Shown here: one piece after another, positions 24,352 through 42,626 of the stretch
Layout: every line of letters starts with the position of its first letter
How positions within the stretch are numbered: the stretch's first letter is position 1
Assembly (NCBI RefSeq): GCF_900129855.1
Contig: NZ_LT670819.1
Span: 6,324,001-6,388,000 of the forward strand
From: Streptomyces sp. 3214.6
GTDB taxonomy: Bacteria; Actinomycetota; Actinomycetes; Streptomycetales; Streptomycetaceae
DNA: 64,000 nucleotides
Reading direction: 5' to 3'
Program-made: the position numbers and the translations under genes
Notes under the pieces: generated by a model
What the model was told of the DNA's origin: nothing
The model's input: only the letters and a program-made list of their open reading frames with translations
The model's database searches: none

Positions 24352-24630
24352 TTAGAGCGGTTGGAGGTGTGTCGTGACGAATTCGCTGAGGGTGGCGATG
24401 GACTGGAGGCTGTCCAGGCTCAGGTCCAGGGCGGCCACGTCGACGCCGTAGCGTTGGTCGATCGTGCCGAGCAGGGTCACACCGGCCAGCGAGGTGAGAC
24501 CGATCTGCGGGCCGAACAGGTCGGTGTCGGCGGGGAGTTCGGCGACGACCGCCTCGTCCAGACGGGCGGCCTCGGCGATCAGCGAACGGAGCTCCTGTTC
24601 CACCGTCGCCCGGTCTCGGGTCTGCGTCAC
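24352..24630 (-). CDS. Stand-alone acyl carrier protein
   Basis: This 92-aa carrier protein has the phosphopantetheine serine in IGLTSLAGV (about residue 47, usually DSL; here TSL) within a four-helix ACP pattern (DTDLFGPQ before, SIATLSEFVTTHL after). It is the last gene of a three-gene operon; GTG at 24630 overlaps the FkbH-like stop codon (GTGA). The PPTase encoded at 28210 probably activates it. FkbH-like enzymes typically load an ACP with a glyceryl-type unit, so this ACP may feed an acyl starter to the C-A-T NRPS. Confidence 0.85.
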   Translation of the reverse strand: MTQTRDRATVEQELRSLIAEAARLDEAVVAELPADTDLFGPQIGLTSLAGVTLLGTIDQRYGVDVAALDLSLDSLQSIATLSEFVTTHLQPL

Positions 24631-25697
24631 GCGTCGGCGTCCTCTCGGTCGGATACGTGCAGCCAGGCCGGCGGCGCCGGCAGGTCGCCGTGGAGGGTCC
24701 TGCCCAGGACCGCGGAATCGGCGTGGGCCGTATGGGTGTCGTCCGTGCGGCGCAGGCCCGCCTGGCGGAGCAGGATGCGCATCTCCAGGTTGGCGTCGGT
24801 CGGGCGCAGGGTCACCCGGAACTCCTCGGCGCCCGCCGCACGGGCCCGCTCCATCAGCCGGAACAGGAAGGCCGCCGCCGCGCCCCGGCCGGCGACCCGG
24901 CAGGACAGCGCGAGCAGCGGGATGGACCGGACGGCGGGGGCGGTGCGGTCGACGAGGGCGGCGCCGATGATGCCGTACGCGCCGAAACGGTCCGTCATGC
25001 GGGCCGTGTACAGCTCGTGTCCCGCCGAGGCGGCCAGCTCGCGCAGCCCGTCGGGGGTGAGGCCGGAGGAGTTCAGACGGTGGGTGCGGGCGGCGAGTTC
25101 CAGGGCGCGGGGGATCTCGTCGGGCGTGGCCAAGCCGACCGTGAGGCGCATGTCGCACCAGCGCAGGAACTCCTCGCGTGAGCCCTGGAAGCGCTCGCCC
25201 TCGGCCCGGCGGGTCTCCTCGGTGCGGTAGCGGTGCACGCGCTCACGGGACTCGGGGGTGACCTCCCGGCCCTCGAACGCGGCCGCCAGCGCGGGCACGT
25301 CCTCGGGGGCGAGGGTGCGCACACCCGGCAGCAGGGCCTCGACCTCGGCGCGCTCGTAGGGGGAGTCGTCGACCAGGACCAGGGCGTCCACCGCGATACC
25401 GAGGTCCTTCGCGATCCTGCGCAGCGACTCGCTCTTGTCCTGCCAGGACACCTGTGGGGCGAGGAAGCGCGCACGCAGCTCCGGTACGGCGTCCAGCCGG
25501 TCGAGCACCGACGGCGCGCTGCGGCTCGCGATGCTGCTGAGTACGCCGTGGGCGGCCAGCGCGTCGACCGCGGCGAGCATCCCGGGGCGGGGCGTGGGCA
25601 GCTCGTCGGTGGGGGACTCGACGGCGATCTCGTCCCACAGGGTGCCGTCGAGGTCCCATACGACGCACTTGACGCGGTCGGGGTCGAAGGCGGTCAC
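24627..25697 (-). CDS. FkbH-like HAD protein with GNAT-like C-terminus
   Basis: This 356-aa HAD-IIIC/FkbH-type protein has DLDGTLW at about 15-21 (nucleophile Asp), LVDDSPYERAEVEALLPGV near 132 and a C-terminal GNAT-like domain (about 190-340, FGAYGIIGAALVD). Canonical FkbH proteins dephosphorylate 1,3-bisphosphoglycerate and attach glycerate to an ACP. Here the Gly-Gly-Val segment after DLDGTLW and the Cys-Ser-Lys-Asn segment (here Ala-Ser-Arg-Ser) are not conserved, so the substrate may differ. GTG start at 25697 overlaps the upstream stop by four bases, and the ACP follows with the same arrangement. Confidence 0.78.
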   Translation of the reverse strand: MTAFDPDRVKCVVWDLDGTLWDEIAVESPTDELPTPRPGMLAAVDALAAHGVLSSIASRSAPSVLDRLDAVPELRARFLAPQVSWQDKSESLRRIAKDLGIAVDALVLVDDSPYERAEVEALLPGVRTLAPEDVPALAAAFEGREVTPESRERVHRYRTEETRRAEGERFQGSREEFLRWCDMRLTVGLATPDEIPRALELAARTHRLNSSGLTPDGLRELAASAGHELYTARMTDRFGAYGIIGAALVDRTAPAVRSIPLLALSCRVAGRGAAAAFLFRLMERARAAGAEEFRVTLRPTDANLEMRILLRQAGLRRTDDTHTAHADSAVLGRTLHGDLPAPPAWLHVSDREDADA

Positions 25698-27526
25698 CGG
25701 TCCCCCTCGGGCAGGAACAGCTTCATGGACAGGCTCGTGGGGTCGAAGCCGAACTTGCGGTAGACCGTGCGCATCGGGACGTTGCCCACATGCACCCGGC
25801 CGACGACCTCCGTGATGCCGTTCGTCAGGCAGAACTCCAGGCCCGCGGTGAGCAGGAGTTCCGCGACGTCACTGCGGTTGTCGACCGGGGAGACGGCCAG
25901 GGAGCGGAAGTTGGCGTAGCGGTCGCCGGTCATCGCGTTCTGGTTGATGCTCACCCAGCACCAGCCGACGGGCTCCTCGCCCGGACCGTGGGCGACGATC
26001 ATGCCCTCCTTCGACTTCTCCATGGCCCGGCCCAGCCGGGACGCCCACCGCTCGGGGTCGTCGATGGCGTCCTCACCGAAGGAGACCCGGGCGATCTCGG
26101 CCTCGAACCGCCCGATGGCCGGCAGATCACGCTCGTCGGCCTGACGGATGACGTACGGCCGCGCCCGCTCGGCGAGAGCGGCCCGGTCGGCGTCGGACGG
26201 CGCGTGCCAGCCGGGGGTGCGAGGGGCGGGAGCGGCGGCGGGAGCGGCGCTGGGAGTGGGGGCGGGCGTCCTGACGGGGGCGGTGGGGGCGGGGGCCGGG
26301 GTCGAAGGCTGCTGGGCCGCCGGGGGCGTCGGTTCGTCCGCCGGGACCAGGCGGCCCGGGCGGAAGGGGCCCTTGCCGCAGTTCGGGCAGCCGTCGGCGC
26401 GCAGGGCGGCGACCGAGGTCCAGCGGGCGCCGGGGCCGACGCGCAGCCGCGCCTCGCACGCCACGCACGTGTACTCGCGCTGCCGGGTCCGCTTGTCGCC
26501 GGTGTAGAGGGGGCCGCTGAACTCGCCCTCGTGGGAGGGGGCCGTCGAGGTGGTGGTGAGGAGGTGCTGGAAGAAGCCGACCCCGCCGAGGATGCCGCTG
26601 CCCTCGTACTCGTTGAAGTTGCGGATGTAGCCGTTGGTGACCAGGCCGAGCGCCATGATCTCCCGCTGCACCTCCAGCATCTCGTCCGGGCTCTTGCCGC
26701 CGAAGGAGAAGAAGACGCTGTGCGCGGGGCCGGGCCGCAGGCCCTCCACGGCACGGGAGAGGAAGAGCCGGGCGCCCTCGGGGGTGTACGGCGGGTCGGT
26801 CATGGCCACGTCGTGCTGCTGGTGCAGTTCGGCGGGCAGCGGCAGCCGCAGGTCGTGCCGGACCGTCTCCACACGGGTGCCGAGACCGGCCGACACCTTC
26901 TGGATGTAGTGGAGGATCTCCGGCGAGATGTCCACGACGGTGACCCGCTCGACGATCGGGGCGCCCAGCACGTCGCCCACCACGGCGACGGCGAGGGAGA
27001 CGAGGTCGTCGTCGCCGATCAGCAGCAGCGAGCCGCCCGGCAGCGCGCCCGCCGTGAGCAGCGCGAGCACCCGGCGCACCTTGGTCTCGGCCGTGCAGTG
27101 CGACTGGTCGATCGCCATGTCGGCGGCGGGGCCCGCCTCCATGAGCGCCCGCAGCCGCGGCACGGCCTCGTCCAGCACGTCGGGGACGACCAGCTCGCGC
27201 CCGTCACAGGTGCGGCAGGTGGCGTCGAGGGCGAGGTCCATGCCGAGCCGGGCGACGAGGTCCCGGCCGGTCTCCGTCAGCCGGGACGGACGCTCCTTGG
27301 TGACGAGGCCCCGGCGGCGCAGCTCGTTGCCCAGGGCCGCCACGATCGGGACGGGCAGGCCGGTCGCGCGGCTGAGGTCCTTCGTGGAGGCGGGAGCGAG
27401 GCGGCGCAGGGCGCGAAGGACCGACCGCACTCCGGGCGGGCCCTCCTGGAGCCGGACGGCGTCCGCGACTTCCGTGAGCACAGAATCGGCGGTGGTACTC
27501 CGAGGGTGCCGACGCGCGTTCGTCAC
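25694..27526 (-). CDS. BpsA-type aminopropyltransferase fused to a GNAT domain
   Basis: This 610-aa protein has several parts in order. A winged-helix-like N-terminus (about 10-85) is followed by a CxxC knuckle (CRTCDG). A Rossmann domain of the branched-chain polyamine synthase (BpsA/DUF43) family follows, with GDDDLVSLA near 170 and TDPPYTPEGARLFLSRA near 243. Next come a zinc ribbon (CVAC and CPNC near 370-395), an Ala/Pro linker, and a GNAT acetyltransferase (about 455-610). BpsA enzymes add aminopropyl groups from decarboxylated SAM to polyamines. A SpeD-like gene lies head to head. GTG at 27526 has GGAG eight bases upstream. The GNAT fusion suggests acetylation of the new amine; this is inference. 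Confidence 0.8.
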   Translation of the reverse strand: MTNARRHPRSTTADSVLTEVADAVRLQEGPPGVRSVLRALRRLAPASTKDLSRATGLPVPIVAALGNELRRRGLVTKERPSRLTETGRDLVARLGMDLALDATCRTCDGRELVVPDVLDEAVPRLRALMEAGPAADMAIDQSHCTAETKVRRVLALLTAGALPGGSLLLIGDDDLVSLAVAVVGDVLGAPIVERVTVVDISPEILHYIQKVSAGLGTRVETVRHDLRLPLPAELHQQHDVAMTDPPYTPEGARLFLSRAVEGLRPGPAHSVFFSFGGKSPDEMLEVQREIMALGLVTNGYIRNFNEYEGSGILGGVGFFQHLLTTTSTAPSHEGEFSGPLYTGDKRTRQREYTCVACEARLRVGPGARWTSVAALRADGCPNCGKGPFRPGRLVPADEPTPPAAQQPSTPAPAPTAPVRTPAPTPSAAPAAAPAPRTPGWHAPSDADRAALAERARPYVIRQADERDLPAIGRFEAEIARVSFGEDAIDDPERWASRLGRAMEKSKEGMIVAHGPGEEPVGWCWVSINQNAMTGDRYANFRSLAVSPVDNRSDVAELLLTAGLEFCLTNGITEVVGRVHVGNVPMRTVYRKFGFDPTSLSMKLFLPEGDR

Positions 27527-27796: not shown

Positions 27797-28177
27797 ATGA
27801 CCAACTCCGCCAACCTCGCCACCGAGGGTATAAACGTCGACGATCTGTGCTCTTATGCCGTCGACGTATGGGTGAGCGACCACAGCATCCTGACCGACGA
27901 GGAGCGCCTCCTCCAGGTGCTGCGCACGGCCGCCGAAAAGGGAAACGCCACGGTGCTCGGTGAGGCGTCGCACGTTTTCCCGAACGGCGCTGTCACCGCG
28001 ATTCTCCTGCTTTCCGCCTCGCACCTGAGCATTCACACCTGGCCCGAATTCAGCCTGGCCAACGTGGATCTGCTCGCCTACGGCCGGCTGAACGGCGAGC
28101 GCATGATGCAGAGCGTCGAACTCGGCCTGTCGCCCACGCGCATCAACGTGACGCGCATGCTGCGCGCCGTGCACTGA
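27797..28177 (+). CDS. SpeD/SpeH-like pyruvoyl S-adenosylmethionine decarboxylase homologue
   Basis: This 126-aa protein is the size of class 1b AdoMet decarboxylases (self-cleaving, pyruvoyl-dependent). The cleavage region reads ASHLSIHTWPE, with the self-processing Ser at about 75 and the His retained. The preceding Glu of the usual ESH is Ala, and the proton-donor Cys (usual FTCG) is Tyr 95 (LLAYG). It may make decarboxylated SAM for the BpsA-like enzyme, or act on another amino acid, as some SpeD homologues have become arginine or ornithine decarboxylases. ATG at 27797 lacks a close ribosome site. It is followed 32 bases on by the PPTase gene. Confidence 0.8.
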   Translation: MTNSANLATEGINVDDLCSYAVDVWVSDHSILTDEERLLQVLRTAAEKGNATVLGEASHVFPNGAVTAILLLSASHLSIHTWPEFSLANVDLLAYGRLNGERMMQSVELGLSPTRINVTRMLRAVH

Positions 28178-28209: not shown

Positions 28210-28944
28210 GTGTTCTCCGTGCAAGTCTCGTGGGCGCGTCTCGGCGACGCCCACGAGGGCCTGCTGCGGCTGCTGGACCCCCGGGAGCGCGGCCGCCACG
28301 ACGCGACCGTCCGCCCCGACGACCGGGCCCGCTTCCTGGTCGGCTGCGCCCTGAGCCGGCTGCTGCTGGGCGAACTGCTCGGCGTGGCCCCGGCGGACGT
28401 GCCCCTGCGGCGCGTGTGCCCGCGCTGCGGCGGGCCGCACGGGAAGGCCCGGCTGGACGCCGCGGACCCGCCCGCGCCCTACGACTTCTCCGTCACCCAC
28501 AGCGGTGCGGTCATCGGCGTCGCCGTGTGCCGGGGCGGGCAGGTCGGCCTGGACGTCGAGGAGGACGGCACTCCCCTCGACGTCGACAGCGCGGCGCGGG
28601 CCGCTCTCTCCGACACCGAACTGGCCGCCCTGAACGCCCTGCCCCCGGCCGAGCGGCGGCCCGCCTTCCTGCGCGTCTGGACCCGAAAGGAAGCCGTCCT
28701 GAAGGCCCTCGGCGTGGGCCTCACCGTGTCGCCGCGCGAGCTGGAGGTGTCGGCGCCCGGCCTGCCACCGGCCGTGCTCACCTGGCCCGACCGGCCGGCC
28801 GTCGTCCGGCCCGAAGCGGGCCTCGCGGACCTGGTCGTCGCCGGGAGGCATCCCGCGGCGGTGGCCGTCACGGGGGCGGGCGCGAGCCGGGTGCGCGTCG
28901 AGCAGCGCGAGCGGTCCGGCCTGGTGGCCGGGTACGGCAGCTGA
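28210..28944 (+). CDS. Sfp-type 4'-phosphopantetheinyl transferase
   Basis: This 244-aa enzyme adds the phosphopantetheine arm to carrier domains. Motifs: PYDFSVTHSG (about 95-104), VGLDVEE (about 113-119, Mg-binding acids), and WTRKEAVLKALG (about 157-168). The length and W-x-x-K-E-A motif are those of the broad-specificity Sfp class. GTG start at 28210. It is probably cotranscribed with the SpeD-like gene and should activate the ACP and both T domains of this cluster. An internal CPRCGG pair is present, as in some relatives. Confidence 0.92.
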   Translation: MFSVQVSWARLGDAHEGLLRLLDPRERGRHDATVRPDDRARFLVGCALSRLLLGELLGVAPADVPLRRVCPRCGGPHGKARLDAADPPAPYDFSVTHSGAVIGVAVCRGGQVGLDVEEDGTPLDVDSAARAALSDTELAALNALPPAERRPAFLRVWTRKEAVLKALGVGLTVSPRELEVSAPGLPPAVLTWPDRPAVVRPEAGLADLVVAGRHPAAVAVTGAGASRVRVEQRERSGLVAGYGS

Positions 28945-28982: not shown

Positions 28983-30302
28983 TCACGCCGCGGCTACGGC
29001 GCCGTCCTCGGGACCCGTCGGCATCGTGCGCAGTCTGCCCACCGGGGACAGGATGATCGGGACGAGCATCGCCGCGGAGACCACGCCCGCGATCCACAGG
29101 GCGCCGTGCAGTCCCGCCACCGCCGCCAGCAGACCGCCCACGGGACCGCCCAGCGCACCGCCGCCGTACAGGAGCATGCGCATCGCCGCCGTCATCCGGC
29201 CCATCAGGGCCTGCGGGGTGATGGTCTGACGCAGGCTCACGATGAGGACGTTCGAGACGCTGCTGCCGAAGTACTCCAGGAAGAACGAGGCGACGAACAG
29301 GATCATCAGCATCCAGCGGGGACCCGTCGCCGCCGGGATCAGCAGCGGACCCAGGAAGATGATCGAGACCGACACCTGGTAGGCACGGCCCACCGTCAGC
29401 CGGCGCACCACCATCCCGGACACCAGCGCGCCCAGCAGACCCCCCACGGCCGCCGCGCCCATGACGAAGCCGACCGCGGCCGCCGACAGGTCCTTGTCGC
29501 GCACGGCGTACAGCAGGAACAGCGACTGCACCATCGTCAGCAGGAAGTTGCAGGAGCAGCCGACGAGCCCGATCGCGCGCAGCCAGCGGTTGCCGAACAC
29601 CCAGCGCAGGCCCTCGGCGAGTTCGGCCCGCAGCGGCCGCTTCTCGCGAGGCGTCTCCGGGGCGGGCTCGGGGGTTCTGATGATCAGCAGGGAGAGCACC
29701 GACACCGCGTAGGAGAAGGCGTTGGCGGTCATCGCGAAGGGCGCCGAGAACGCGCTCACCAGCGTGCCGGCCACCCCCGGCCCGGCGATGTCCGCCGACG
29801 ACAGCGTGGCGTTGAGCTTGGTGTTGGCCTCCAGCAGACTGCGCCGGTCCTTCACCAGCACCGGGACGTACGACATCCAGCTGACGTCGAAGAGCACCGA
29901 CGCCACCCCGACGCCCAGCGCCAGCGCGTACAGCAGCGGCAGGGTCAGCAGGTCGACGTGGTAGAGGACCGGGACCAGGCCGATCAGCACCATCCGCACC
30001 AGGTTGGCGCCCAGCATCACCGGCCGCTTGCGCACCCGGTCCACCCACACGCCGAACAGCAGAGCCAGCCCCAGGAACGGCACCAGCTGCGTGAACCGCA
30101 GCAGCCCGAGCTGCTCGGCCCCCACGTCGAAGACCAGTACCGCGGTGAGCGGAAGCGCGAGGTTGGTGATCTGGGTGCCGTACAGGGAGAGCGCCTCGCC
30201 CGTCCAGAACACCATGAAGTCCCGGTGGTGCCAGAGCGAGCGGGGCGGACTGTCCGGCTCGGCCTCGGCGACCGTCTCGGCGTGGGTGCCGTGCTCCGTC
30301 AT
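28983..30302 (-). CDS. Major facilitator superfamily exporter
   Basis: This 439-aa protein has about 12 membrane helices and looks like the EntS/macrolide-efflux MFS type (LWHHRDFMVFWTGEALSLYGTQITNLALPL at the first helix, GVWVDRVRKRPVML at the 2-3 loop). It is the last gene of the main NRPS operon; ATG at 30302 overlaps the thioesterase stop codon. Likely exports the product or provides self-resistance. Confidence 0.88.
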   Translation of the reverse strand: MTEHGTHAETVAEAEPDSPPRSLWHHRDFMVFWTGEALSLYGTQITNLALPLTAVLVFDVGAEQLGLLRFTQLVPFLGLALLFGVWVDRVRKRPVMLGANLVRMVLIGLVPVLYHVDLLTLPLLYALALGVGVASVLFDVSWMSYVPVLVKDRRSLLEANTKLNATLSSADIAGPGVAGTLVSAFSAPFAMTANAFSYAVSVLSLLIIRTPEPAPETPREKRPLRAELAEGLRWVFGNRWLRAIGLVGCSCNFLLTMVQSLFLLYAVRDKDLSAAAVGFVMGAAAVGGLLGALVSGMVVRRLTVGRAYQVSVSIIFLGPLLIPAATGPRWMLMILFVASFFLEYFGSSVSNVLIVSLRQTITPQALMGRMTAAMRMLLYGGGALGGPVGGLLAAVAGLHGALWIAGVVSAAMLVPIILSPVGRLRTMPTGPEDGAVAAA

Positions 30303-31114
30303 TCTGGCGTCGCCTCTCGTAGGGCCTGGTCGACGATGGCGCTGATGGCGGTCAGCCCGGGCTCCTGCCACACGGAGTGGTGGTCGCCGGGCACGGTGTG
30401 CTCGGTCAGCCTGCTCAGCCTGGGACGCCAGTCGAGCAGTCGCTCCTGAGACTCCGCGGCCTTGATCAGGATCGCGGGCCCGTCGTGGACCGACGCCACC
30501 GAATGCTGCCGCAGGGCCACGACATGCGTGCGGAAGAGGGCGTAGCGCTCCAGCAGGAACTCCGCGTCGAACTCCTCGGGCACGACCCCGTCGCGCTCCA
30601 CCACCTCGAAGATCTCGGCCGGCTCCGCCCCCGGCCGCATGCCTGCCAGGGCGGTGTCGACGCCGGGCGCCCGGTCCCGGGTCACGCCGAGGAAGTCGTA
30701 CAGGAAGTAGCGGGCGAGCTGGTCCTCGGGCGGCACCTGTTGGGTGCCGGGCAGTGCCGCGTCGACCATGACGAGCACGGGCACCTCTTCGCCCGCGGCG
30801 GCCAGCAGTCGCGCCATCTCGTAGGCGACGACCCCGCCGAGCGACCAGCCGAGCAGCAGGTACGGGCCGTGCGGGCGGGCCGCTCGCAGGGCGGCCGTGT
30901 GCAGCTCGGCCAGCTCCTGGATGGAGCGGGCGGGTTCGGAGACGCCGTCGAAGCCGGGTGCCTCGAAGCCGAACACGGGGCGTTCGGGGTCCAGTTGATG
31001 GGTCAGGCCCGCATAGCAGTAGGGCGAGCCGGAGACCGGATGGACGCAGTACAGAGGGGGCAGGCCACCCGCCGCGCGGAGGGGGACGATGCTGTTGACG
31101 GAGAGTTCGGTCAC
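30299..31114 (-). CDS. Stand-alone thioesterase
   Basis: This 271-aa alpha/beta hydrolase has the catalytic Ser in GWSLGG (Ser about 91), an Asp after VLVMVDA, and the His in PGDHHSVW near the end. Its sequence resembles NRPS C-terminal (type I) thioesterase domains more than the type II editing enzymes (for example PLYCVHPVSGSPYCYAGL). Neither NRPS here ends in a TE, so this enzyme is the best candidate for product release. GTG at 31114 overlaps the A-T NRPS stop by four bases. Confidence 0.85.
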   Translation of the reverse strand: MTELSVNSIVPLRAAGGLPPLYCVHPVSGSPYCYAGLTHQLDPERPVFGFEAPGFDGVSEPARSIQELAELHTAALRAARPHGPYLLLGWSLGGVVAYEMARLLAAAGEEVPVLVMVDAALPGTQQVPPEDQLARYFLYDFLGVTRDRAPGVDTALAGMRPGAEPAEIFEVVERDGVVPEEFDAEFLLERYALFRTHVVALRQHSVASVHDGPAILIKAAESQERLLDWRPRLSRLTEHTVPGDHHSVWQEPGLTAISAIVDQALREATPE

Positions 31115-33612
31115 TGCTCCGGAGCTCCGTTCGTGGTCGGTGCCGACCGCGCGAGCCGCTGGTCGATCTCGGAGGCGATGCCGCTGACGGTGTTCCCGCC
31201 GTACAGCAGCCGGACGTTCACCCTGACCCCGAAGTGCTTGGTGAGCCGGGTGACGGCACGCATGGCCTGCAGCGAGTTGCCGCCGACCGCGAAGAAGCTG
31301 CTGTCCGCGCCGACCCGGGACACCGACAGCACGGTCGCGAAGACCTCGGCCACGGTCCGCTCGGTCGGCGTGACCGGCGCCGCATACGTCCCCTCGGGCT
31401 CGCCGACGGGCTCCGGCGGGGCCGGCAGCGCCTTGCGGTCGACCTTGCCGTTGGGCGTCAACGGCAGCTCGGCCAGGACGAGCACGGTGCTCGGCACCAT
31501 GAAGCGCGGCAGGGACCGCGCGGCGTGCTCGCCGACCGCCTCCGGCGACACGGTCCGGCCCGCCGCGGCGACCACATGGGCGACCAGCCGCTGGTCGCCC
31601 GACCCGTCGGGGTGCGCGGTGACGACCGCCTCCCGGACCGTGTCGTGGGCGCGCAGGACGGCCTCGATCTCGCCGAGTTCGATGCGCAGCCCGCGCACCT
31701 TCACCTGGAAGTCGGACCTGCCCAGCAGCTCGATCAGACCGTCGGGGCCGTAGCGGGCCACATCGCCGGTCCGGTAGAGGCGCTCGTCCGTCACCTCGCC
31801 GCAGGACCAGGTGAAGAACCGCTCCGCGGTCTGCTCGGGCCGGCCGAGATAGTCCCGGGCGAGCCCGATGCCCGCCAGGTGCAGCTCGCCGGGCACACCG
31901 GGCGGCACCGGGCGGCGGGAGTCGTCGAGGATGTAGGTGCGCTGGTTGGCCATGGGACGCCCGTACGGGATGCTCGTCCAGCGCGGGTCGGTCTTCTCCA
32001 CCTCGTAGATGGTGGAGTGGATGGACGACTCGGTGGCCCCGCCGAGGGCGATGAAGCGCACCCCGGGAGCGACCGCGCGGGTCCGGTCGGGCAGTGACAC
32101 GGGGATCCAGTCGCCGCCCAGCAGCGCCAGCCGCAGGTCGTCGAGCGGCGGCGCGCCGACGCTGTCGAGGTGGGTGACGACCAGGTCCAGGAGAGCGGGC
32201 GCCGAGTTCCAGACGGTGACCTGGTGCGCGGCCAGCAGCTCCGCCCAGTGCTCGGGGTCCTTGGCCCGCTCCGGGTCCGGCAGGATCACGGTGCCGCCGG
32301 CGGCCGTCAGCCCCAGGAACTCGTAGACCGACATGTCGAAGCTGGGCGAGGACAGCGCGAGGACGCGGTCGCCGGAGCCCACGCCGAAACGGGAGTTGAG
32401 GTCCGCGATGTTGTTCATCACCCCGCGGTGGCGCAGGGCGATCGGCTTGGGGGCGCCGGTCGACCCGGAGGTGTGGATGACGTAGGCCAGGTCGTCCGGA
32501 CCGGCGCCCCCCTGCGGGTTGTGAGCCGGGCGGGCGGCGAGGAGGGCCTCGTCGCGGTCGAGGAGCACCACGGGACCGCCCGGCGTGGTGTCCGGCAGGG
32601 GGAGGCCGGCGGCCGGGCCGCTGCGGCTGATCACCGCCGTGCAGGAGGTGCCGGTCATCATCGCGGCGAGCCGCTGCTCGGGGTAGTCGGGGTCGAGCGG
32701 CACATAGGCGCCGCCCGCCTTGAGCACGCCCAGGACGGCGACCAGCAGGTCCCAGGAGCGCTCCAGGCAGATGCCGACCCGCCGGTCGGGACCCACGCCC
32801 AGCTCGCGCAGATGGTGGGCGAGCCGGTTCGCCGCCTCGTTGACCTCGCGGTACGTCCACGTCCGGCGGCCGCTGTCGTCGCTGTCGCCGCCGCCGATGA
32901 GCGCGGGGGCGTTGGGCGACTCGGCGGCGTGGGCCTCGAACGCGGTGTGCAGGCACACGTCGTGCGGCAGGTCCGTGTCGGTGGCGTTCCAGTCGACGAG
33001 GACGCGCTGCAGCTCGGTCTCCGGGAGCAGACGCAAGCGGGAGACCGGACGGTCCGGGGCGGCCAGCCCGTCCGCCAGCAGGGTGCGGTAGCAGGCGAGC
33101 AGCCGGACCAGGGTGTCCTGGTCGAACAGGGCGGGCGGATACCGCAGTTCGGCGGTGCGCGGGCCGTCGTCGGGCTCGCCCGGTGGGTGCAGTACGAGCT
33201 CGAACTCGTCCGACTGCGCGGGGTCCGTGGCCGGTGTGCGGCCGGCGGCGGTGCCGCGGGCCAGCCCGGCGAGGGTGGACGCCGTGGTGACGACGCAGGC
33301 CAGACGGACCGCGCCCGTCGTGGGGGTCCGCGCGGCGAACGCGAACTCGGACTGGCCCGTCCAGCGGTGCAGCAGCGCGGTGAACGCGGCCAGGAGGACG
33401 TCGTCCGGGGCGGTGCGGGCCGAGCCGTCGAGCCGCACCCGGGCGGAACCGGTGCGGTCCGGAGTGGTTCCGGGCAGCCGGGGCCGATCCGTCGGCAGCA
33501 GGGCCGGGGGCGCCGAACGCGGAGCGGCCGAGGAGGAAGCCGGGGCGGAAGCCTGGGAGGAAACAGATGAAAGAGCGGGGGAGGAGCTGTGGGGGGAAGC
33601 GTTCAGGGTCAA
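31111..33612 (-). CDS. NRPS A-T protein with a truncated condensation domain
   Basis: This 833-aa protein has a Ser/Ala/Pro-rich start, a partial condensation-like region (about 45-180) without the HHxxxDG motif, an adenylation domain (about 205-720) and a T domain (Ser about 780 in GGNSLQAM). Adenylation motifs: IHTSGSTGAPK, GRSDFQVKVRGLRIELGEIE and LTPNGKVDRKAL. I read the specificity positions as D-M-Y-N-L-G-L-I-H-K, nearest among codes I remember to Cys-type (DLYN-), with Gly-like xGLI; no firm call. TTG at 33612 overlaps the SHMT-like stop (TTGA), with GGAGAG five bases upstream. It probably presents one amino acid for in-trans tailoring or condensation. Confidence 0.88.
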   Translation of the reverse strand: MTLNASPHSSSPALSSVSSQASAPASSSAAPRSAPPALLPTDRPRLPGTTPDRTGSARVRLDGSARTAPDDVLLAAFTALLHRWTGQSEFAFAARTPTTGAVRLACVVTTASTLAGLARGTAAGRTPATDPAQSDEFELVLHPPGEPDDGPRTAELRYPPALFDQDTLVRLLACYRTLLADGLAAPDRPVSRLRLLPETELQRVLVDWNATDTDLPHDVCLHTAFEAHAAESPNAPALIGGGDSDDSGRRTWTYREVNEAANRLAHHLRELGVGPDRRVGICLERSWDLLVAVLGVLKAGGAYVPLDPDYPEQRLAAMMTGTSCTAVISRSGPAAGLPLPDTTPGGPVVLLDRDEALLAARPAHNPQGGAGPDDLAYVIHTSGSTGAPKPIALRHRGVMNNIADLNSRFGVGSGDRVLALSSPSFDMSVYEFLGLTAAGGTVILPDPERAKDPEHWAELLAAHQVTVWNSAPALLDLVVTHLDSVGAPPLDDLRLALLGGDWIPVSLPDRTRAVAPGVRFIALGGATESSIHSTIYEVEKTDPRWTSIPYGRPMANQRTYILDDSRRPVPPGVPGELHLAGIGLARDYLGRPEQTAERFFTWSCGEVTDERLYRTGDVARYGPDGLIELLGRSDFQVKVRGLRIELGEIEAVLRAHDTVREAVVTAHPDGSGDQRLVAHVVAAAGRTVSPEAVGEHAARSLPRFMVPSTVLVLAELPLTPNGKVDRKALPAPPEPVGEPEGTYAAPVTPTERTVAEVFATVLSVSRVGADSSFFAVGGNSLQAMRAVTRLTKHFGVRVNVRLLYGGNTVSGIASEIDQRLARSAPTTNGAPEQ

Positions 33613-35087
33613 GGCCTCTCTCCTGGGGCGAGGGCGGGGACGTCGGCCGTGGGGACGGCGGCTCCGAAGGGCAGCGGATGGATGTGGCACAGGGCGGCCA
33701 CCTCGGCCCGCACCCGGTCGCGCACGGCCGGGTCGGTGCGGAACTCGGTGTCCGACAGCACGGTGGTGGCGCTGAGCACCTCGTGCAGGAGACCGGCGCA
33801 GACCCGCATCTCGGCGGGCCCCATGCCGCGCTGCGCCAGGACGTTCGTGCCGAGCCGCAGGCCGCCGGCGACCAGCGGGGGCTTGTCGTCGCCGGGGATG
33901 CGGTTGCGGTTCGTGAGGATTCCGCAGTCCTCAAGGGCTCGTTCGGCGACCACGCCGGTCATGCCGCGCCCGGCCATGTCCAGCAGCACCATGTGGTTGT
34001 CGGTGCCGCCGGTCAGGACCCGGTGGCCGAGCCCCGCCAGATCGCCGGCGAGGGCCGCGGCGTCGTCGACGACCAGCCGCATGGTCTCCTTGAACGCCGG
34101 TTCCGCCACCGCCTTCAGGGCGTGCGCCTTGGCGGCGATCGAGGCCGGGCTCGGGGTGCCCTGCGACTGGGGGAAGACCGCGCGCTGCATCAGCCGGTCG
34201 AGAGGGGTGCGGCCGTCCGGGCCCGGGGTGCGGTGCTCCCGTCCGATGAGGATCAGGCCCCCGCGCGGGCCGCCCAGCTGCTTGTAGGTGCTGGTGGTGG
34301 TGATGTGGGCGAGGTCGATGGGGCTGGGGTGTTCGCCGGCGGCCACCAGACCGGCGATGTGCGAGATGTCGGCGACCAGAAACGCCCCGACGGAGTCCGC
34401 GATCGCCCGGAACCTGACGAAGTCGAGCGTCCGTGGATAGGCGCTGGCCCCCGCGATGACCACGGTGGGGCGGTGGACCCGGGCCAGTTCGGCCGCCTGG
34501 TCGTAGTCGACGAACCCACGCTCGTCCAGGCCGTAGTGGACCGCCCGGTAGTGGCGCCCGGTCACCGAGGCCGAGGACCCGTGGGTGAGATGGCCCCCGG
34601 CGTCCAGGTCAAGGGCGAGCAGGGCGCCGCCCGGGGGCAGTAACGCGGCCAGCACGGCCTGGTTCGCCGAGGAGCAGGAGTGCGGCTGGACGTTGGCGTA
34701 GCGGGCGCCGAAGGCCTGCCGGGCCCGGTCGGCGGCCAGCCGCTCCACCCCGTCGAAGCGGCTCGCGCCGGGGTGGTAGCGGGCCCCCGGATAGCCCTCG
34801 GCCGTCACGTTCGACAGCGCGGCACCGCCCGTGGCCAGGACCGACGGGCTCGCGACGCTGGCGGACGCCACCATCGCCAGCGTCGCGGTCTGCTCCTCCA
34901 CCTCCCGGTCGAGCAACCCGGCCAGCTCGGGATCGGTCCGGGTCAACAGCTCCGCGCCCCGCCGCAGCAGCAGAGCCTGCGCGGAGCCGGAGCCGGAGCC
35001 GGAGCCGGAGTCGGTGCCGGGGGCGGTGTTGGGGCCGTTCTGTTGACGGCCCGGGGCCGCGGTCGCGGCCCGCGGGGTCTCAAGCAT
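33609..35087 (-). CDS. Serine hydroxymethyltransferase-like PLP enzyme
   Basis: This 492-aa fold-type I enzyme has the PLP lysine at about 269 in TTTSTYKQLGGPRGG. Housekeeping SHMT has His before Thr/Lys at the Tyr position. It keeps LRLGTN (carboxylate-binding Arg), AEGYPGARYHPG and SANQAVLAALLPPG. The extra 35 N-terminal residues include a Gly-Ser run. Secondary SHMTs in biosynthetic clusters can make beta-hydroxy or alpha-methyl amino acids by aldol chemistry. An in-frame TTA codon lies at 34641-34643. ATG at 35087 overlaps the C-A-T NRPS end by eight bases. Confidence 0.87.
   Translation of the reverse strand: MLETPRAATAAPGRQQNGPNTAPGTDSGSGSGSGSAQALLLRRGAELLTRTDPELAGLLDREVEEQTATLAMVASASVASPSVLATGGAALSNVTAEGYPGARYHPGASRFDGVERLAADRARQAFGARYANVQPHSCSSANQAVLAALLPPGGALLALDLDAGGHLTHGSSASVTGRHYRAVHYGLDERGFVDYDQAAELARVHRPTVVIAGASAYPRTLDFVRFRAIADSVGAFLVADISHIAGLVAAGEHPSPIDLAHITTTSTYKQLGGPRGGLILIGREHRTPGPDGRTPLDRLMQRAVFPQSQGTPSPASIAAKAHALKAVAEPAFKETMRLVVDDAAALAGDLAGLGHRVLTGGTDNHMVLLDMAGRGMTGVVAERALEDCGILTNRNRIPGDDKPPLVAGGLRLGTNVLAQRGMGPAEMRVCAGLLHEVLSATTVLSDTEFRTDPAVRDRVRAEVAALCHIHPLPFGAAVPTADVPALAPGERP
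34641..34643 (-). promoter_or_regulatory. TTA codon (bldA-dependent) in the SHMT-like gene
   Basis: In-frame TTA at codon 149 (frame checked from the ATG at 35087) within AALLPPG. It is the only TTA I saw in the NRPS operon. In Streptomyces such codons commonly delay secondary-metabolite expression until bldA tRNA is charged. Confidence 0.85.
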
Positions 35088-38000
35088 GCGTACCCGCCGC
35101 CTTCTTGGCCTGCGTCAGCCCGTCGACGGCCGAGGCGATGGTGGCGACCGTGGCCCCGCCGTACAGCAGACGGACGTTGACCTTGACGCCGAAGTGCTTG
35201 TTCAGCCGACTCACCACCCGCATCGCCTGCAGCGAGTTGCCACCCAGCTCGAAGAAGCTGCCGTCCGCTCCGACCTGCTCCATGGACAGCACGGCGCCGA
35301 AGACCTCGGCCACCTTCTCCTCCGTGGCGGTCCCCGGGGCGACAAAACTCGCCGCGCCGTCCGTCGCGGACACCGGAGCGGGCAGCGCGCTCCGGTTGAT
35401 CTTGCGGGCCGGGGTCAGCGGGAACTCCGCCAGCTCCACCCAGGCCGTGGGCACCATGTACTCGGGCATCGTGCGACCCAGGTGCTCGCGCAGCTCGGCC
35501 ACGGTCGGCGAGGCGTCACCGAGCACCGTGTAGTAGGCGACGAGCTGCTTCTCCCCGCCGTCCTCCCGCAGCAGCACCAGAGCCATACGGATCTTCGGGT
35601 GCGTCAGCAGCCCCGACTCGATCTCGCCGAGCTCGATCCGCAGCCCGCGCAGCTTCACCTGGTTGTCCAGGCGGCCGATGAAGTCGATCTGCAGATCGCG
35701 CGTCCAACGCACCAGGTCACCCGTGCGGTACACCCGGCCCTCGCCCAGGAACGGGTCGGGGACGAACTTCTCGTCCGTCATCTCCGGCAGGTTCAGATAG
35801 CCGCGGGCCAGGCCCTCGTCGCCGCCGATCAGCAGCTCGCCCGGCACACCGACCGGCACCAGGTTGAAGTCCTTGTCGACCACGTAGTGCAGCCGGCTGA
35901 ACTCGGGCCGGCCGATGGGCGGCGACGACAGCCACTCCTTGTGCTCGCACAGGTATTCGGTGGTCGCCACCGATGCCTCGGTCGGACCGTAGAGGTTCAC
36001 GAACTTGCGGCCCGGCAGGTTCCACTTGTTGACCAGCTCGGCCGGCAGGGCCTCCGCACCGCCCATGATGTACTTCAGATCCGGGTACGGCCCCGCCTCG
36101 ACCACGGAGAGGATCGCCGGCGACAGACCGGCGTACGTGACCCGCTGGTCCCGGATCAGCGCGCCCAGGGACTCAGGCGAGGAGGCGTCCTCCGGCGCCA
36201 CCAGCACCATCGCCGAACCGCTGATCAGACCGGCGAAGATCTCACCCTGAGACATGTCGAAGGTCAGCGCCGGCAGCTGCAGCAGCCGGTCCTCGTGGGT
36301 CCACTCGCCGAAGCTGCGCCGGTAGGCCTCGATGAACATGCGCAGACCGCGCTGCTCGATCATCACGCCCTTGGGACGCCCGGTCGAGCCCGAGGTGTAG
36401 AGGACGTACACCAGCGACGTCGGCTCCGCCCACTCCTCCAGCGGCACGTCGTCCGACTGCGCCTCGATGACGTCCCAGTCGGCGTCGATCCGCAGGCTCT
36501 CCCAGCCGCAACTGTCCGGCAGATCGCCCAGCGCGGCCTGCCGCGTGATGACCAGCGGTGTTGCGGTGTCCCGCAGCATGTGGTCCAGCCGGGCGTTGGG
36601 GTGCGAGGGGTCGATGATCGTGTACGCGGCGCCGGACACCATCACGCCCAGGATCGCCACCAGGGCGTCCAGGTCGCGGTCCATTGCGATGGCCACGACC
36701 TGCTCGCGGCCCACGCCCCGGGAGCGGATGTACCGGGCGAGCTTCCCGGCCCGCCGCATCAGCTCGCCGTACGTCATCTCCACCCCGCGGCAGACCGCCG
36801 CGACCAGCTCCGGGTGCTCCTCGGCGATCCGCGCGATCGTCGCGTGGACCGGCTCCGTCGGGTACTCGAAGTCGGGGCCGCGTCCGACCGCGAGCAGTTC
36901 CTCGCGCTCGGCTCCGGACAGCAGCGGCAGCGCGGAGACCGGGGTGTCCGGGGCGTCCGCCGCGGCCGCGAGCACGGTCTCGAAGTGCCGGACCAGGGCC
37001 TCGACGCGCCAACGGTCGTACAGGTCGGTCGCGAACTCGACGATCAGCCGCAGCCGTTCGGCGCCCTCGACGAAGCTGAAGGACACATCGAACCGGGAGC
37101 GCGTCCCCGCCACCGTGATCGTCTCGGCCGTCAGGCCCGCCAGCTGGAACGCGTCGCCGGTGGTCGTCTCGCCGAGCAGCTGGCAGGCGATCTGGAACAG
37201 CGGGTTGCGGCCCGCGTCCCGGACCGGCTGCACCCGGTCCACGATACGGTCGAACGGCACGTCCTGGTTGTCGTACATGTCGAGGTTGGCGTCGGTGATG
37301 CGCTCCAGCAGCTCGGCGAAGGTGACCCCGCCGGACAGGTCGGACCGCAACACCGTCATGTTGATGAACAGGCCTACGACGTCCTCGAGTTCGGGGTCCG
37401 TACGGCCGAGCATGGGCACCCCGAGGGCGATGTCGTCCTGGCCGCTGTACCGGCTCAGCACGACGTTCAGTGCCGCGGCGACCACCATGTACAGGGACGC
37501 GCCCTGCTCCTGCGCCAAGGCACGTGCCTTGGTGAGCAGTTCGGTGGGGAAGTCGACTACGAAGGTCTCGCCGCTCTGGGTGGGCTCCGCGGGCCGCAGC
37601 CGGTCGGCGGGCAGTTCGAGCGCCTCCAGGCCGGCCAGCCGCTCCTGCCAGAACTTGAGCTCCTCCTCCCAGACACCGTCGGCCTGCTGCCGACGCTGCT
37701 CCTGGACGTGGTCGCCGTAGCCGACCGTCAGCTCCGGGAGCGCGGGCGTGCGGCCCGCCGTCAGGTCCCCGTAGGCCTGGGAGATCTCACGGCTGATCAC
37801 ACCGCCGGACCAGCCGTCGGTGACGATGTGATGGAAGCCGAGGCAGAGCACATGGTGGTCGGCGGCCAGCCGGAACAGCAGGAACCGGGAGAGGGGCCCC
37901 GCCGTCAGGTCGAACGGCGTGTCGGCCTCGGTCTGCAGCGCCTCGCGCAGCGCGCTCTCCGCGTCTTCGGGGTCCGGCCGGGAGAGGTCGCGAAGCGGCA

Positions 38001-38259
38001 GCGGCCGGTCCTGCGCCGGTGCGACGACCTGGTAGGGCACACCGTCCGCCGAGTGGAAGGTCACCCGCAGCTGCTCGTGGCGCGCCACCAGCACGTTGAG
38101 GGCCTGCTCCAGCGCGGGCACGTCCAGCGGACCGCGCAGCCGGTAGGCCTGGATGACGTTGTAGGTGGTCTCCCCGGGACTCATCTGGTCCAGGAACCAC
38201 AACTGCTCCTGCCCGAAGGACAGTTGGATGCGTGACTCGTCGGGGAGCGAGGCGCTCAT
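35080..38259 (-). CDS. Nonribosomal peptide synthetase, C-A-T module
   Basis: This 1059-aa protein has a condensation domain (about 10-440; HHIVTDGWS near 140), an adenylation domain (about 460-960; LYTSGSTGRPKG, NLYGPTEAS, GRLDNQVKLRGLRIELGEIE) and a T domain (Ser about 1009, LGGNSLQAM). No epimerisation or TE domain. I read specificity positions as D-M-G-G-I-G-L-V-A-K, which matches no code I know. The upstream C domain needs a donor from another carrier, either the free ACP or the A-T protein. ATG at 38259 chosen; a GTG two codons earlier (38265) is possible, with GGAG in front of both. SHMT-like gene overlaps its end. Confidence 0.93.
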   Translation of the reverse strand: MSASLPDESRIQLSFGQEQLWFLDQMSPGETTYNVIQAYRLRGPLDVPALEQALNVLVARHEQLRVTFHSADGVPYQVVAPAQDRPLPLRDLSRPDPEDAESALREALQTEADTPFDLTAGPLSRFLLFRLAADHHVLCLGFHHIVTDGWSGGVISREISQAYGDLTAGRTPALPELTVGYGDHVQEQRRQQADGVWEEELKFWQERLAGLEALELPADRLRPAEPTQSGETFVVDFPTELLTKARALAQEQGASLYMVVAAALNVVLSRYSGQDDIALGVPMLGRTDPELEDVVGLFINMTVLRSDLSGGVTFAELLERITDANLDMYDNQDVPFDRIVDRVQPVRDAGRNPLFQIACQLLGETTTGDAFQLAGLTAETITVAGTRSRFDVSFSFVEGAERLRLIVEFATDLYDRWRVEALVRHFETVLAAAADAPDTPVSALPLLSGAEREELLAVGRGPDFEYPTEPVHATIARIAEEHPELVAAVCRGVEMTYGELMRRAGKLARYIRSRGVGREQVVAIAMDRDLDALVAILGVMVSGAAYTIIDPSHPNARLDHMLRDTATPLVITRQAALGDLPDSCGWESLRIDADWDVIEAQSDDVPLEEWAEPTSLVYVLYTSGSTGRPKGVMIEQRGLRMFIEAYRRSFGEWTHEDRLLQLPALTFDMSQGEIFAGLISGSAMVLVAPEDASSPESLGALIRDQRVTYAGLSPAILSVVEAGPYPDLKYIMGGAEALPAELVNKWNLPGRKFVNLYGPTEASVATTEYLCEHKEWLSSPPIGRPEFSRLHYVVDKDFNLVPVGVPGELLIGGDEGLARGYLNLPEMTDEKFVPDPFLGEGRVYRTGDLVRWTRDLQIDFIGRLDNQVKLRGLRIELGEIESGLLTHPKIRMALVLLREDGGEKQLVAYYTVLGDASPTVAELREHLGRTMPEYMVPTAWVELAEFPLTPARKINRSALPAPVSATDGAASFVAPGTATEEKVAEVFGAVLSMEQVGADGSFFELGGNSLQAMRVVSRLNKHFGVKVNVRLLYGGATVATIASAVDGLTQAKKAAGTHA

Positions 38260-38319
38260 CGTCACAGGACTCCAATCGGCTGTACACGGTGGTGTTCCAA
38301 CGGGGGCGTTACGGGGACG

Positions 38320-39426
38320 TCAGTGGTTCGGGGGCGGTGCAGTCGTGCGGGCGTCGGGCCTGAGGACGCTCTCCACGCGGCGCAGTCCTTCGGTCACCGC
38401 CTCGGGTGAGCGCGCGAAACAGATCCGGAAACCGTCGCTGGCGCCGAGGGTCTCGCCGGGCATCAGCAGAACGCCCAGGTCCAGCGCCCGGCGGCACATC
38501 GCCAGCGGCTCCTCCCCGGTCCGGAGCCAGAGCCAGGCGAACGGCGTGCCCTCCGGTTCCACGAGCTCCACCGCGTCCGCGTTGCGCCGGGCGAACTCCC
38601 TGACCAGGGACAACCCCTGCCCGGTGAGTTCGTGATAGGACCGCAGATGGCGCTCACGGTCGGCCAGCACCTCACGGGCCAGCGTCTCGCACAGCACCGA
38701 ATTGGAGATGGTGGACAGGAACTTGCGCTCGGCACAGCCCGCCACCACGGACGGCGGACCGTACAGCCAGCCCACCCGCAGCCCCGGGAAGCCGTACACC
38801 TTGGACAGGCTGGACACGGAGATCACCCGGTCGCCGTCGAGCGCGGCGGAGCGGGACAGATCGAGCGCGTACTCCTCGTCGAGCAGCAGACGAGCGCCCG
38901 TGCGCGAGGCGAGGGCCACCAGGGCGCGCAGGTCCCGCTCGGCTATGCGCCGACCGGTCGGATTGCACGGGCTGTTGGCCACGATCAGCTTCACGTCGGG
39001 CCCGGCGACGGCCTCGGCGGCCTCGACGTCGAAGCTCAGATCCGGGCGGAACCCGACGAGATCGACCCGGCAGCCGAGCGCGGCCGGCACGTCCCAGGAC
39101 TGCTGCCAGCCCGGCCGGAAACCGATCACCCGGTCCCCGGGGCTCAGCAGCGACGCGTACACGAGGTAGAGGGCCTGTTGGGCGCCCTGGGTGATGAGGA
39201 CCGAGTCGGGCGACCCGCCGTAGAGTTCCGCCACCGCCTCGCGCAGCGCGCCCAGGCCGTGGTCGTGGCCGTAGTCCAGCTCCAGGCCGGCCGGCAGGGT
39301 GAGGTCGTCGAGGTGTCCGGGGAGCATGTTGCTGTCGCCGAGGTCGATGTCGAAGCGCCCCGCGGCGTCCTCGAACACCCACCGCTGCATCGGATAGTCG
39401 CGGGCGCGCTCGACGGAGACGGTCAC
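38320..39426 (-). CDS. PLP-dependent aminotransferase, class I/II
   Basis: This 368-aa fold-type I enzyme has the PLP lysine at about 209 in SLSKVYGFPGLRVGW. NSPCNPTG and LLLDEEYALDLS hold the cofactor ring and pyridine nitrogen. QGAQQALYLVYASLL lies at the phosphate-binding region. Could supply a nonproteinogenic amino acid or catalyse beta/gamma-replacement, as do capreomycidine-synthase-like relatives. GTG at 39426 overlaps the DapF-like stop by four bases (GTGA). The gap to the NRPS start is 60 bases. Confidence 0.87.
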   Translation of the reverse strand: MTVSVERARDYPMQRWVFEDAAGRFDIDLGDSNMLPGHLDDLTLPAGLELDYGHDHGLGALREAVAELYGGSPDSVLITQGAQQALYLVYASLLSPGDRVIGFRPGWQQSWDVPAALGCRVDLVGFRPDLSFDVEAAEAVAGPDVKLIVANSPCNPTGRRIAERDLRALVALASRTGARLLLDEEYALDLSRSAALDGDRVISVSSLSKVYGFPGLRVGWLYGPPSVVAGCAERKFLSTISNSVLCETLAREVLADRERHLRSYHELTGQGLSLVREFARRNADAVELVEPEGTPFAWLWLRTGEEPLAMCRRALDLGVLLMPGETLGASDGFRICFARSPEAVTEGLRRVESVLRPDARTTAPPPNH

Positions 39427-40355: not shown

Positions 40356-40438
40356 GGCTGGTCTCCCTCCGCTGCTGGGCGCGGCGGAGCGCCGGGGCGT
40401 CGCGTCATGACGGCCCCGGGGCTCCACGGCGTTCCGGT

Positions 40439-41125: not shown

Positions 41126-41159
41126 GTTCTGTCCTCCAGACGGAGTGGATGGTGGGGCG

Positions 41160-42203: not shown

Positions 42204-42626
42204 GAGTTTCCCCTTGGATTCACTGGACGAATGAAGTTTCGTCATGAAGGCATTCACCGTCGTCCGGAAGGCAGCGGGCTCCCTTCCCCCTTTGTCACGC
42301 ATGCCGTTCACGTGACGCCGGCCTGCCGATCACGCGAAGCGGGAGAGCGTTCGACGAGGCGGAAACACAAGGGCGCGAACCGGCCTTTCTTTCCGTCTCT
42401 TATGTGTCGCCCGAGCCCGGACGGGGCGGCAGGCCTCGGCTATTCTGCGGCGGCCTCACTGGATGAAGTCTGTATACCTTCTGGATGCCCGGAGGCCGTC
42501 GTGGACGGCACCATGACGAAGGGCGGGGAGGCCGCCGGTATGTGACGTTCTGTCACCCTTTGGTGGGGTTCAGAAAAAGTGCGGAGCGAATCATTCCGCC
42601 CACTTTTGGAGGGAGTTGTCATCACG
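42204..42626. promoter_or_regulatory. Divergent intergenic region, NRPS operon and PNPOx-like gene
   Basis: 423 bp without a convincing gene. It should carry the promoter of the NRPS operon and of the opposite gene. A gtatac-centred element (42467-42480, tctgtatacc) is the only palindrome core I noted. No regulator gene lies nearby. Confidence 0.45.

Follow-up and report, generated by a model that had tools for sequence, protein, structure and literature searches.

A BpsA-acetyltransferase fusion in Streptomyces and its candidate carrier-protein cassette for aminopropylated, acylated amines

The analysis of a 64,000-nucleotide stretch of Streptomyces sp. 3214.6 (the window) identified a protein in which a BpsA half is fused to a GNAT acetyltransferase half. 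It is suggested, with confidence evenly divided, that an aminopropylated, N-acylated amine would be made by a compact cassette built around this fusion as its central enzyme, in which speD, usually with a PPTase gene, is divergent from bpsA-gnat, fkbH and acp. Comparison of sequences and gene order shows that the fusion arose once, that distant relatives carry the unfused form, that the gene set and its order are constant, and that the window holds two adjoining gene clusters, of which the cassette is independent of the NRPS-type cluster. The features are as follows.

24352..24630, minus strand: acp, acyl carrier protein of 92 residues (Pfam PP-binding, 6.6e-8); GLTSL attachment site; 4-base overlap with fkbH
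24627..25697, minus strand: fkbH, HAD phosphatase/glyceryltransferase (TIGR01686, 174.9 bits, cut-off 146.65); overlaps the fusion by 4 bases
25694..27526, minus strand: bpsA-gnat fusion, 610 residues (Pfam BpsA_C and Acetyltransf_1, PDB BpsA matches, fusion relatives)
26492..27526, minus strand: BpsA half, residues 1-345, with winged helix and CxxC knuckle C104/C107
26342..26479, minus strand: zinc ribbon C354/C357...C380/C383, invariant in 13/13 fusions
26222..26335, minus strand: Pro/Ala linker, residues about 398-435, disordered (pLDDT under 50), its length varying among fusions
25694..26161, minus strand: GNAT half, residues 456-610, P-loop Gly replaced (N-R-S-D-V-A)
27797..28177, plus strand: speD homologue (AdoMet_dc), 126 residues (Pfam 5.6e-23, 81.8 bits against a cut-off of 25)
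28210..28944, plus strand: 4'-phosphopantetheinyl transferase (PPTase; Pfam ACPS 1.3e-14), starting 32 bases past speD
28983..42311, minus strand: NRPS-type cluster, outside the cassette (MFS, A-PCP, SHMT, C-A-PCP, PLP cyclase-like, DapF-like, 2OG oxygenase and haem-oxygenase-like enzyme)

Gene content of the cassette and of its NRPS-type neighbour

Among 32 distinct loci (duplicates L061, L064, L068, L072 and L078 were left out, as was L158, which equals L070), speD stands beside the fusion in every one and a PPTase gene lies near speD in 27. Where at least 2.5 kb is available downstream, fkbH accompanies the fusion in 28/28 loci and acp in 27/28; the fkbH copy of L025 is a relic, this locus having kept SpeD and an intact fusion with a broken fkbH and no ACP match. 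Two points were absent from the earlier note on this DNA: the non-canonical GNAT P-loop described below and the position of speD, which starts 271 bases from the fusion on the opposite strand. Within the genome of 9.38 Mb, BpsA_C is found nowhere but in the fusion and AdoMet_dc only in the speD homologue beside it. In two actinobacterial MAGs (L080, L081), speD faces bpsA-gnat-fkbH-acp, but bpsA and gnat are unfused there and overlap at ATGA.

The earlier note had placed the fusion in an NRPS cluster, a location that did not hold. The eight NRPS-side genes are complete in 4/4 fetched Streptomyces loci (L153-L156) without speD, bpsA or fkbH; NRPS genes are close to the fusion in only 2 of the 30 distinct loci with enough flank, and among the 30 distinct cassettes whose sequence on the NRPS side extends for 8 kb or more, 28 lack NRPS or SHMT genes of such kind in it. 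Given that the two clusters are about 3 kb or less apart in the window and in L029/L061, it could be argued that the fusion acts as a tailoring enzyme for a peptide on the adjoining NRPS. However, either cluster is found without the other, and this role, already largely refuted, was rejected as highly unlikely. A likely annotation error is thereby corrected, the neighbouring NRPS cluster being, on this evidence, a separate pathway.

The same fusion in primary polyamine metabolism outside NRPS clusters had been named as a finding that would speak against the earlier note. The fusion does occur outside NRPS clusters, but its setting there is a carrier-protein cassette and not ordinary polyamine metabolism. 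It might be supposed that the fusion simply makes a branched polyamine and acetylates it, FkbH and ACP being unrelated, since L107 is a two-gene speD-bpsA locus (its contig has neither fkbH nor acp in the 1.5 kb that follow bpsA) and L113 has a canonical BpsA close to speD. This is very improbable for two reasons: first, the occurrence is sporadic, BpsA_C being above the cut-off in 14 of 392 Streptomyces genomes (AdoMet_dc is present in 20 of the 392, including all 14; one further genome, G314, locus L030, has a weak BpsA_C match below the cut-off, E 3.9e-4). Second, the genes for FkbH and ACP are joined by overlaps to the fusion operon, and even relatives of 46% identity retain them.

The BpsA half and its relatives

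The reading frame at 25694-27652 of the minus strand is open with a strong coding bias, and its most likely start is the GTG at 27526. Pfam assigns BpsA_C to the fusion at E=1.4e-38 (133 bits against a cut-off of 27), phmmer matches it to the solved BpsA structure 5xnc (E=1.4e-31) and to 2qm3 (E=5.4e-33), and structure comparison of the BpsA half with Tk-BpsA 5xnf gives a Z of 26.4 and an rmsd of 2.6 over 225 aligned residues. These matches bear out the BpsA fold that had been read from the GDDDLVSLA and DPPYT motifs. The zinc ribbon, the Ala/Pro linker and the fused GNAT domain of the earlier note are likewise confirmed, by the invariant cysteines, by the disorder of the linker in the model and by an Acetyltransf_1 match above the cut-off (E=4.3e-5) together with a good fold of the GNAT half modelled alone (pLDDT 85.7). 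The GDDD (171-174, as GDDDLVS) and DPPYT (244-248) motifs, most of NFNEY (303-307) and C354, C357, C380 and C383 show no variation across 13 aligned fusions. At 12 other loci the fusion is 66-92% identical to that of the window, and in L022 (whose record is that of L072) the GNAT half has an apparent frameshift.

In alignment with Tk-BpsA, residues D158-D160, D225 and Y290 are conserved, E259 corresponds to Gly277 and Y316 falls outside the alignment. A Tk-BpsA study (PMC12979288) assigns D158-D160 to the dcSAM site and D225, E259 and Y290 to the acceptor, and names the acidic C-terminal tail (E339-E345) as the aminopropyl carrier. This acidic cluster is missing in the fusion, with the zinc ribbon, linker and GNAT half in its place, and a single invariant Asp, D344, lies near the lost tail in the 13 aligned fusions. 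The zinc ribbon is also present in the unfused BpsA of L080/L081 and in L107.

The fusions form their own clade in the BpsA tree (27 fusions, support 100/99), separate from the canonical BpsA of other actinobacteria, so that the cluster-linked forms do group together, a point the earlier note had raised; the tree left out the duplicates L061, L064, L068, L072 and L078, L021, L074 and L077 (domain cut short), and L082. In a search of the class, 80 of the 394 genomes had BpsA_C above the cut-off; counts rest on such matches, the genomes with sub-cut-off matches only being 11/25 in the phylum search and 7/87 in the class search, and sequence reading of the class matches above the cut-off covered 26 newly fetched loci (L115-L140). 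All 25 non-fusion proteins read from this search have GDHD and not GDDD. These GDHD-type proteins, from other actinobacterial families, share the BpsA_C domain and, in most, DPPYT with the fusion; unlike it, they have GDHD without a zinc ribbon (27/27 rows) and show no GNAT match (0/25 compared), and they form a separate clade (100/100). The description of BpsA in the earlier note, as an enzyme mainly of thermophiles, calls for qualification in view of the 80 genomes, the 25 proteins being of the GDHD and not the GDDD type.

SpeD, the carrier protein and the acyl donor

SpeD scores 74 bits against NCBIfam TIGR03330, below the cut-off of 75.65. The pyruvoyl-site Ser and His (T. maritima S63, H68) and the HTWPE Pro are present in 33/33 rows, one of them a duplicate. 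The catalytic Cys (C83) is Tyr in 30/30 Streptomyces loci and in L107, and is a normal Cys in L080 and L081. According to PMC10407285, this Cys is expected in SpeD and its ADC/ODC relatives, the Pro of HTWPE is the mark of a true AdoMetDC, and some SpeD homologues have turned into ornithine or arginine decarboxylases. This precedent, the Tyr substitution and the changed acceptor-side residues of the BpsA half raise the possibility that SpeD no longer decarboxylates SAM and makes another amine, the BpsA half moving a different SAM-derived group. Nevertheless, this is improbable, given that the HTWPE Pro is kept throughout, that L080/L081 have the normal Cys in the same cassette and that GDDD is retained in every cassette BpsA row read at full length.

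FkbH has the phosphatase motif DxDxT in 28/29 rows and the transferase motif SCRxxGRG, which we take to be the catalytic site, in 27/29 (duplicate L158 counted). The attachment Ser of the ACP is present in 28/28 rows, and in Streptomyces the site reads TSL or SSL, not DSL. In known pathways, glyceryl-ACP is made by FkbH.

GNATs bind acyl-CoA at a P-loop with the motif Q/RxxGxG/A, and in the GNAT half Asp, Glu or Arg takes the place of the first Gly in 15/15. The GNAT half matches many GNAT structures at Z 13-15, a generic fold match, and its best Foldseek match, the polyamine acetyltransferase DpA (16% identity), is a mere lead because other structural rows are tied with it. An alternative is that the GNAT half caps or detoxifies the aminopropylated product with acetyl-CoA, as MccE2 does processed microcin C, and that a distinct moiety of the molecule is made by FkbH and ACP. 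In its favour, DpA, PA4866 and BAR are among the acetyl-CoA enzymes tied as fold matches, BAR is the only PDB sequence match (E=0.0011), and PMC9239234 describes MccE as serving both to install aminopropyl and to confer self-immunity. Capping with acetyl-CoA is nonetheless considered unlikely, in view of the replaced P-loop Gly and of the smallest cassettes, where no other enzyme for unloading the ACP is evident. The GNAT half is the only obvious acyltransferase of those cassettes.

Proposed pathway and its nearest known systems

We infer the individual reactions, the GNAT donor, the acceptor amine and the product as follows. SpeD would process itself to the pyruvoyl enzyme and then decarboxylate SAM; the BpsA half would bind decarboxylated SAM via GDDD and transfer the aminopropyl group to an amine near DPPYT and Tyr307. 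The PPTase would arm the ACP, and FkbH would dephosphorylate 1,3-bisphosphoglycerate and load glyceryl on the ACP. The GNAT half would then transfer an acyl group to the amine, with glyceryl from the ACP as the likeliest donor, and the fusion would allow the amine to be handed from one half to the other. Formation of glyceryl-ACP is likely, slightly more so than aminopropyl transfer by the BpsA half, which is likely too, whereas use of an ACP-bound acyl group by the GNAT half falls just short of an even prospect. It is rather doubtful that a single polypeptide aminopropylates an amine from decarboxylated SAM, supplied by a SpeD that has Tyr for Cys, and next adds glyceryl to the nitrogen from glyceryl-ACP by means of a GNAT half that has become independent of acyl-CoA. 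Counted against the cassette making an aminopropylated, N-acylated amine are this Tyr in all 30 Streptomyces loci, the loss of the BpsA acidic tail and the change of E259 to Gly277, the lack of working FkbH/ACP in L025 and L107, the TSL/SSL site of the ACP, the generic GNAT fold and the finding of no gene for acceptor-amine biosynthesis among the cassette genes. Of the earlier proposal that one protein could alkylate and then acetylate an amine on a peptide or carrier, two parts are retained: aminopropyl-plus-acyl chemistry acting on an amine is probable, and a link to a carrier is possible through the constant ACP and FkbH. Membership of the NRPS cluster is not retained.

No paper describing the cassette was found among open-licence PMC papers. 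With BpsA, the N4-bis(aminopropyl)spermidine synthase of Thermococcus and Thermus (5xnc, 5xnf, 6j27), the fusion shares the fold, winged helix, GDDD, DPP motif and speD partner, but it has DPPYT instead of DPPET, no acidic carrier tail, an extra zinc ribbon and GNAT, and FkbH/ACP partners. Microcin C MccD/MccE and the tandem-aminopropylated McC of Bacillus are reported also to place aminopropyl on a natural product and to have a pathway-linked GNAT; there, however, MccD/MccE belong to other protein families and act on a peptidyl-nucleotide, and the carrier protein and FkbH are particular to the cassette. The glyceryl-ACP modules of tetronate and methoxymalonyl pathways similarly combine FkbH with a stand-alone ACP, but the constant cassette genes include no FabH-like ketosynthase, dehydrogenases or PKS, and here FkbH and ACP are partnered by SpeD and BpsA-GNAT. 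DpA (8a9n, 8a9o) resembles the GNAT half as its top Foldseek match and differs in the low identity, in the tie with other GNATs and in the P-loop Gly that the GNAT half is missing.

In summary, the Streptomyces cassette probably builds a decorated polyamine-like amine, and its product may prove to be a natural compound of a new kind. The cassette offers a natural test of whether SpeD can function without its catalytic Cys, and of how BpsA does so without its acidic carrier tail. If the proposed pathway is true, aminopropyl and acyl transfer, usually the work of separate enzymes, would be fused in one protein, polyamine metabolism would be joined to carrier-protein chemistry in a minimal five-gene cluster, and speD beside bpsA-gnat-fkbH-acp would be a genome-mining handle for a family of glyceryl- or acyl-polyamines in Streptomyces.

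The fusion protein and its partner genes

The bpsA-gnat fusion, the sole BpsA_C protein of the genome, lies among the following genes of the window:

24352-24630: small ACP, downstream of FkbH with a 4-base overlap
24627-25697: FkbH protein, TIGR01686 above its cut-off, downstream of the fusion with a 4-base overlap
25694-27652, minus strand: fusion ORF, most likely start GTG 27526, 610 aa, strong coding bias
27797-28177, strand opposite to the fusion and 271 bases away: speD homologue (AdoMet_dc), the only SpeD of the genome
28210-28944: PPTase, after speD
28983-42311, minus strand: NRPS-type cluster with SHMT, VioD/GntC-like PLP enzyme, DapF-like epimerase, 2OG oxygenase and haem-oxygenase-like enzyme
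31111-33690, minus strand: second NRPS module, of whose initial condensation domain only the C-terminal part is present

The fusion matches BpsA_C (E 1.4e-38) and Acetyltransf_1 (E 4.3e-5) in Pfam, its sequence relatives include solved BpsA enzymes (5xnc, 1.4e-31) and 2qm3 (5.4e-33), and the predicted model comprises a winged helix plus Rossmann-type BpsA half, a zinc ribbon, a Pro/Ala linker (residues 398-435, disordered in the model) and a GNAT half; the earlier note's description of the protein is therefore correct, though it overlooks the neighbouring speD, PPTase, fkbH and acp genes. The BpsA half aligns with 5xnf over 225 residues (Z 26.4, rmsd 2.6). Modelled alone, the GNAT half has a pLDDT of 85.7, and ordinary GNATs, including DpA, tie for its best match in the PDB.

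Conservation of the cassette and the neighbouring NRPS cluster

Of 392 Streptomyces genomes, 14 have a BpsA_C match above the cut-off. Their loci, combined with 23 named loci and one further Streptomyces genome, gave 32 distinct loci after removal of six duplicates, the window and two actinobacterial MAG loci (L080 and L081) included. SpeD is present in all 32 and, where at least 2.5 kb downstream was available, FkbH in 28/28 and ACP in 27/28; L025 keeps the fusion, but its fkbH is broken and it gave no hit for the ACP. The PPTase occurs in 27 of the 32, being absent from L025, L071, L080, L081 and L082. Among 13 Streptomyces loci whose fusions are 64-92% identical, SpeD is 92-100% identical, which is unusual for a 126-aa enzyme. 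Close to speD, the cassettes of L021, L022, L024, L060, L069, L072, L074, L078 and L079 also carry a gene for an alpha/beta hydrolase, as does L017. A larger related cluster (B12/radical SAM, PPTase, PIG-L, alpha/beta hydrolase, Tyr-type SpeD, BtrH-like acyltransferase) is seen in L052, L053 (G339, G352) and L017 (G363), the last combining these genes with bpsA-gnat, fkbH and acp.

The fusion had been placed in an NRPS cluster, and this is not borne out. Of the 30 loci with 8 kb or more of sequence on the NRPS side, 2 carry NRPS/SHMT genes of the window's kind: L029 and the window itself, whose fusions group as sisters in the tree (82/87). Four other Streptomyces genomes (G328, G170, G361 and G005), none of them with a BpsA_C match in the scan of 392 genomes, encode close relatives of the PLP cyclase-like enzyme seen in the window; in all four the HDO-2OG-DapF-PLP enzyme-NRPS2-SHMT-NRPS1-MFS set is complete, and speD, bpsA and fkbH are absent from the 19.9 kb fetched. 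Taken together, this gene content indicates that two clusters lie side by side in the window, the NRPS cluster being a separate unit, independent of the cassette. Its VioD/GntC-like PLP enzyme suggests a cyclic arginine-derived residue.

History of the fusion

A tree of 64 BpsA domains, with long branches flagged, groups the 27 fusions in one clade (100/99), adjacent to the unfused zinc-ribbon forms of L107 and L080/L081 (joint branch 91/90), and places canonical BpsA and the large GDHD group in other clades. In L080 and L081 (46% identity) zinc-ribbon bpsA is a gene distinct from gnat, the two overlapping at ATGA; fkbH and acp come next, and speD is divergent. On such a reading of the tree, bpsA and gnat would have been neighbours first and fused later. 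At L107, speD and zinc-ribbon bpsA stand alone, and L052 has a decayed GNAT remnant between the BtrH-like gene and ACP. The GDHD-type BpsA_C group (L108, L109, L116-L140) is widespread in actinobacteria, has GDHD in place of GDDD and an unrelated C-terminus and in some families is usually present once per genome.

Putative chemistry of the cassette

BpsA residues were read from an alignment to Thermococcus BpsA (Tk-BpsA), with roles from PMC12979288. On this basis the fusion keeps the aspartates of the decarboxylated SAM (dcSAM) site, D225 and Y290, has Gly277 at the position of E259 and DPPYT for DPPET, and is missing the acidic carrier tail. The kept dcSAM site, together with the changed acceptor residues and lost tail, suggests that the BpsA half may use dcSAM as donor with another acceptor, perhaps by direct transfer. 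Conserved in the cassette SpeD are the pyruvoyl Ser, the His and the HTWPE motif, the Pro of which marks AdoMetDC versus arginine decarboxylase (PMC10407285). Its Cys position is Tyr in 30/30 Streptomyces loci and Cys in both MAGs; among six Streptomyces genomes with other SpeD types only, it is Cys in all four whose sequence reached the site. FkbH retains DxDxT in 28 and SCRxxGRG in 27 of 29 rows (duplicate L158 counted), the ACP attachment Ser is kept in 28/28 rows, the carrier site being TSL or SSL in Streptomyces, and the first Gly of the GNAT CoA P-loop is replaced by Asp, Glu or Arg in 15/15.

We propose, as the probable route, that SpeD would produce dcSAM, with which the BpsA half would aminopropylate an amine; the PPTase would arm the ACP, FkbH would then load glyceryl onto it, and the GNAT half would acylate the amine. 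The loading step is likened to that of tetronate and methoxymalonyl pathways, where FkbH loads glyceryl onto an ACP (PMC7489565 and PMC8949500). Since the five genes of L080/L081 encode no ketosynthase, condensation or thioesterase domain, the GNAT would be the simplest candidate for unloading the ACP. The main rival is that the GNAT half acts with acetyl-CoA in capping or self-protection, by analogy with MccE2 of microcin C (PMC9239234; MccD/MccE chemistry, PMC10491745). Speaking against the proposed pathway are the SpeD Tyr for Cys, the lost acidic tail, the TSL/SSL site, the retention of the fusion in L025 despite its broken fkbH and lack of an ACP hit, and a cassette that holds no amine-making gene. 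Given two Spermine_synth matches in the genome, one strong and one weak, ordinary spermidine could be a substrate, though there is no second SpeD. The parts of the cassette all belong to known families. None of the open-licence PMC papers searched was found to describe the gene combination, the fusion or the carrier link.
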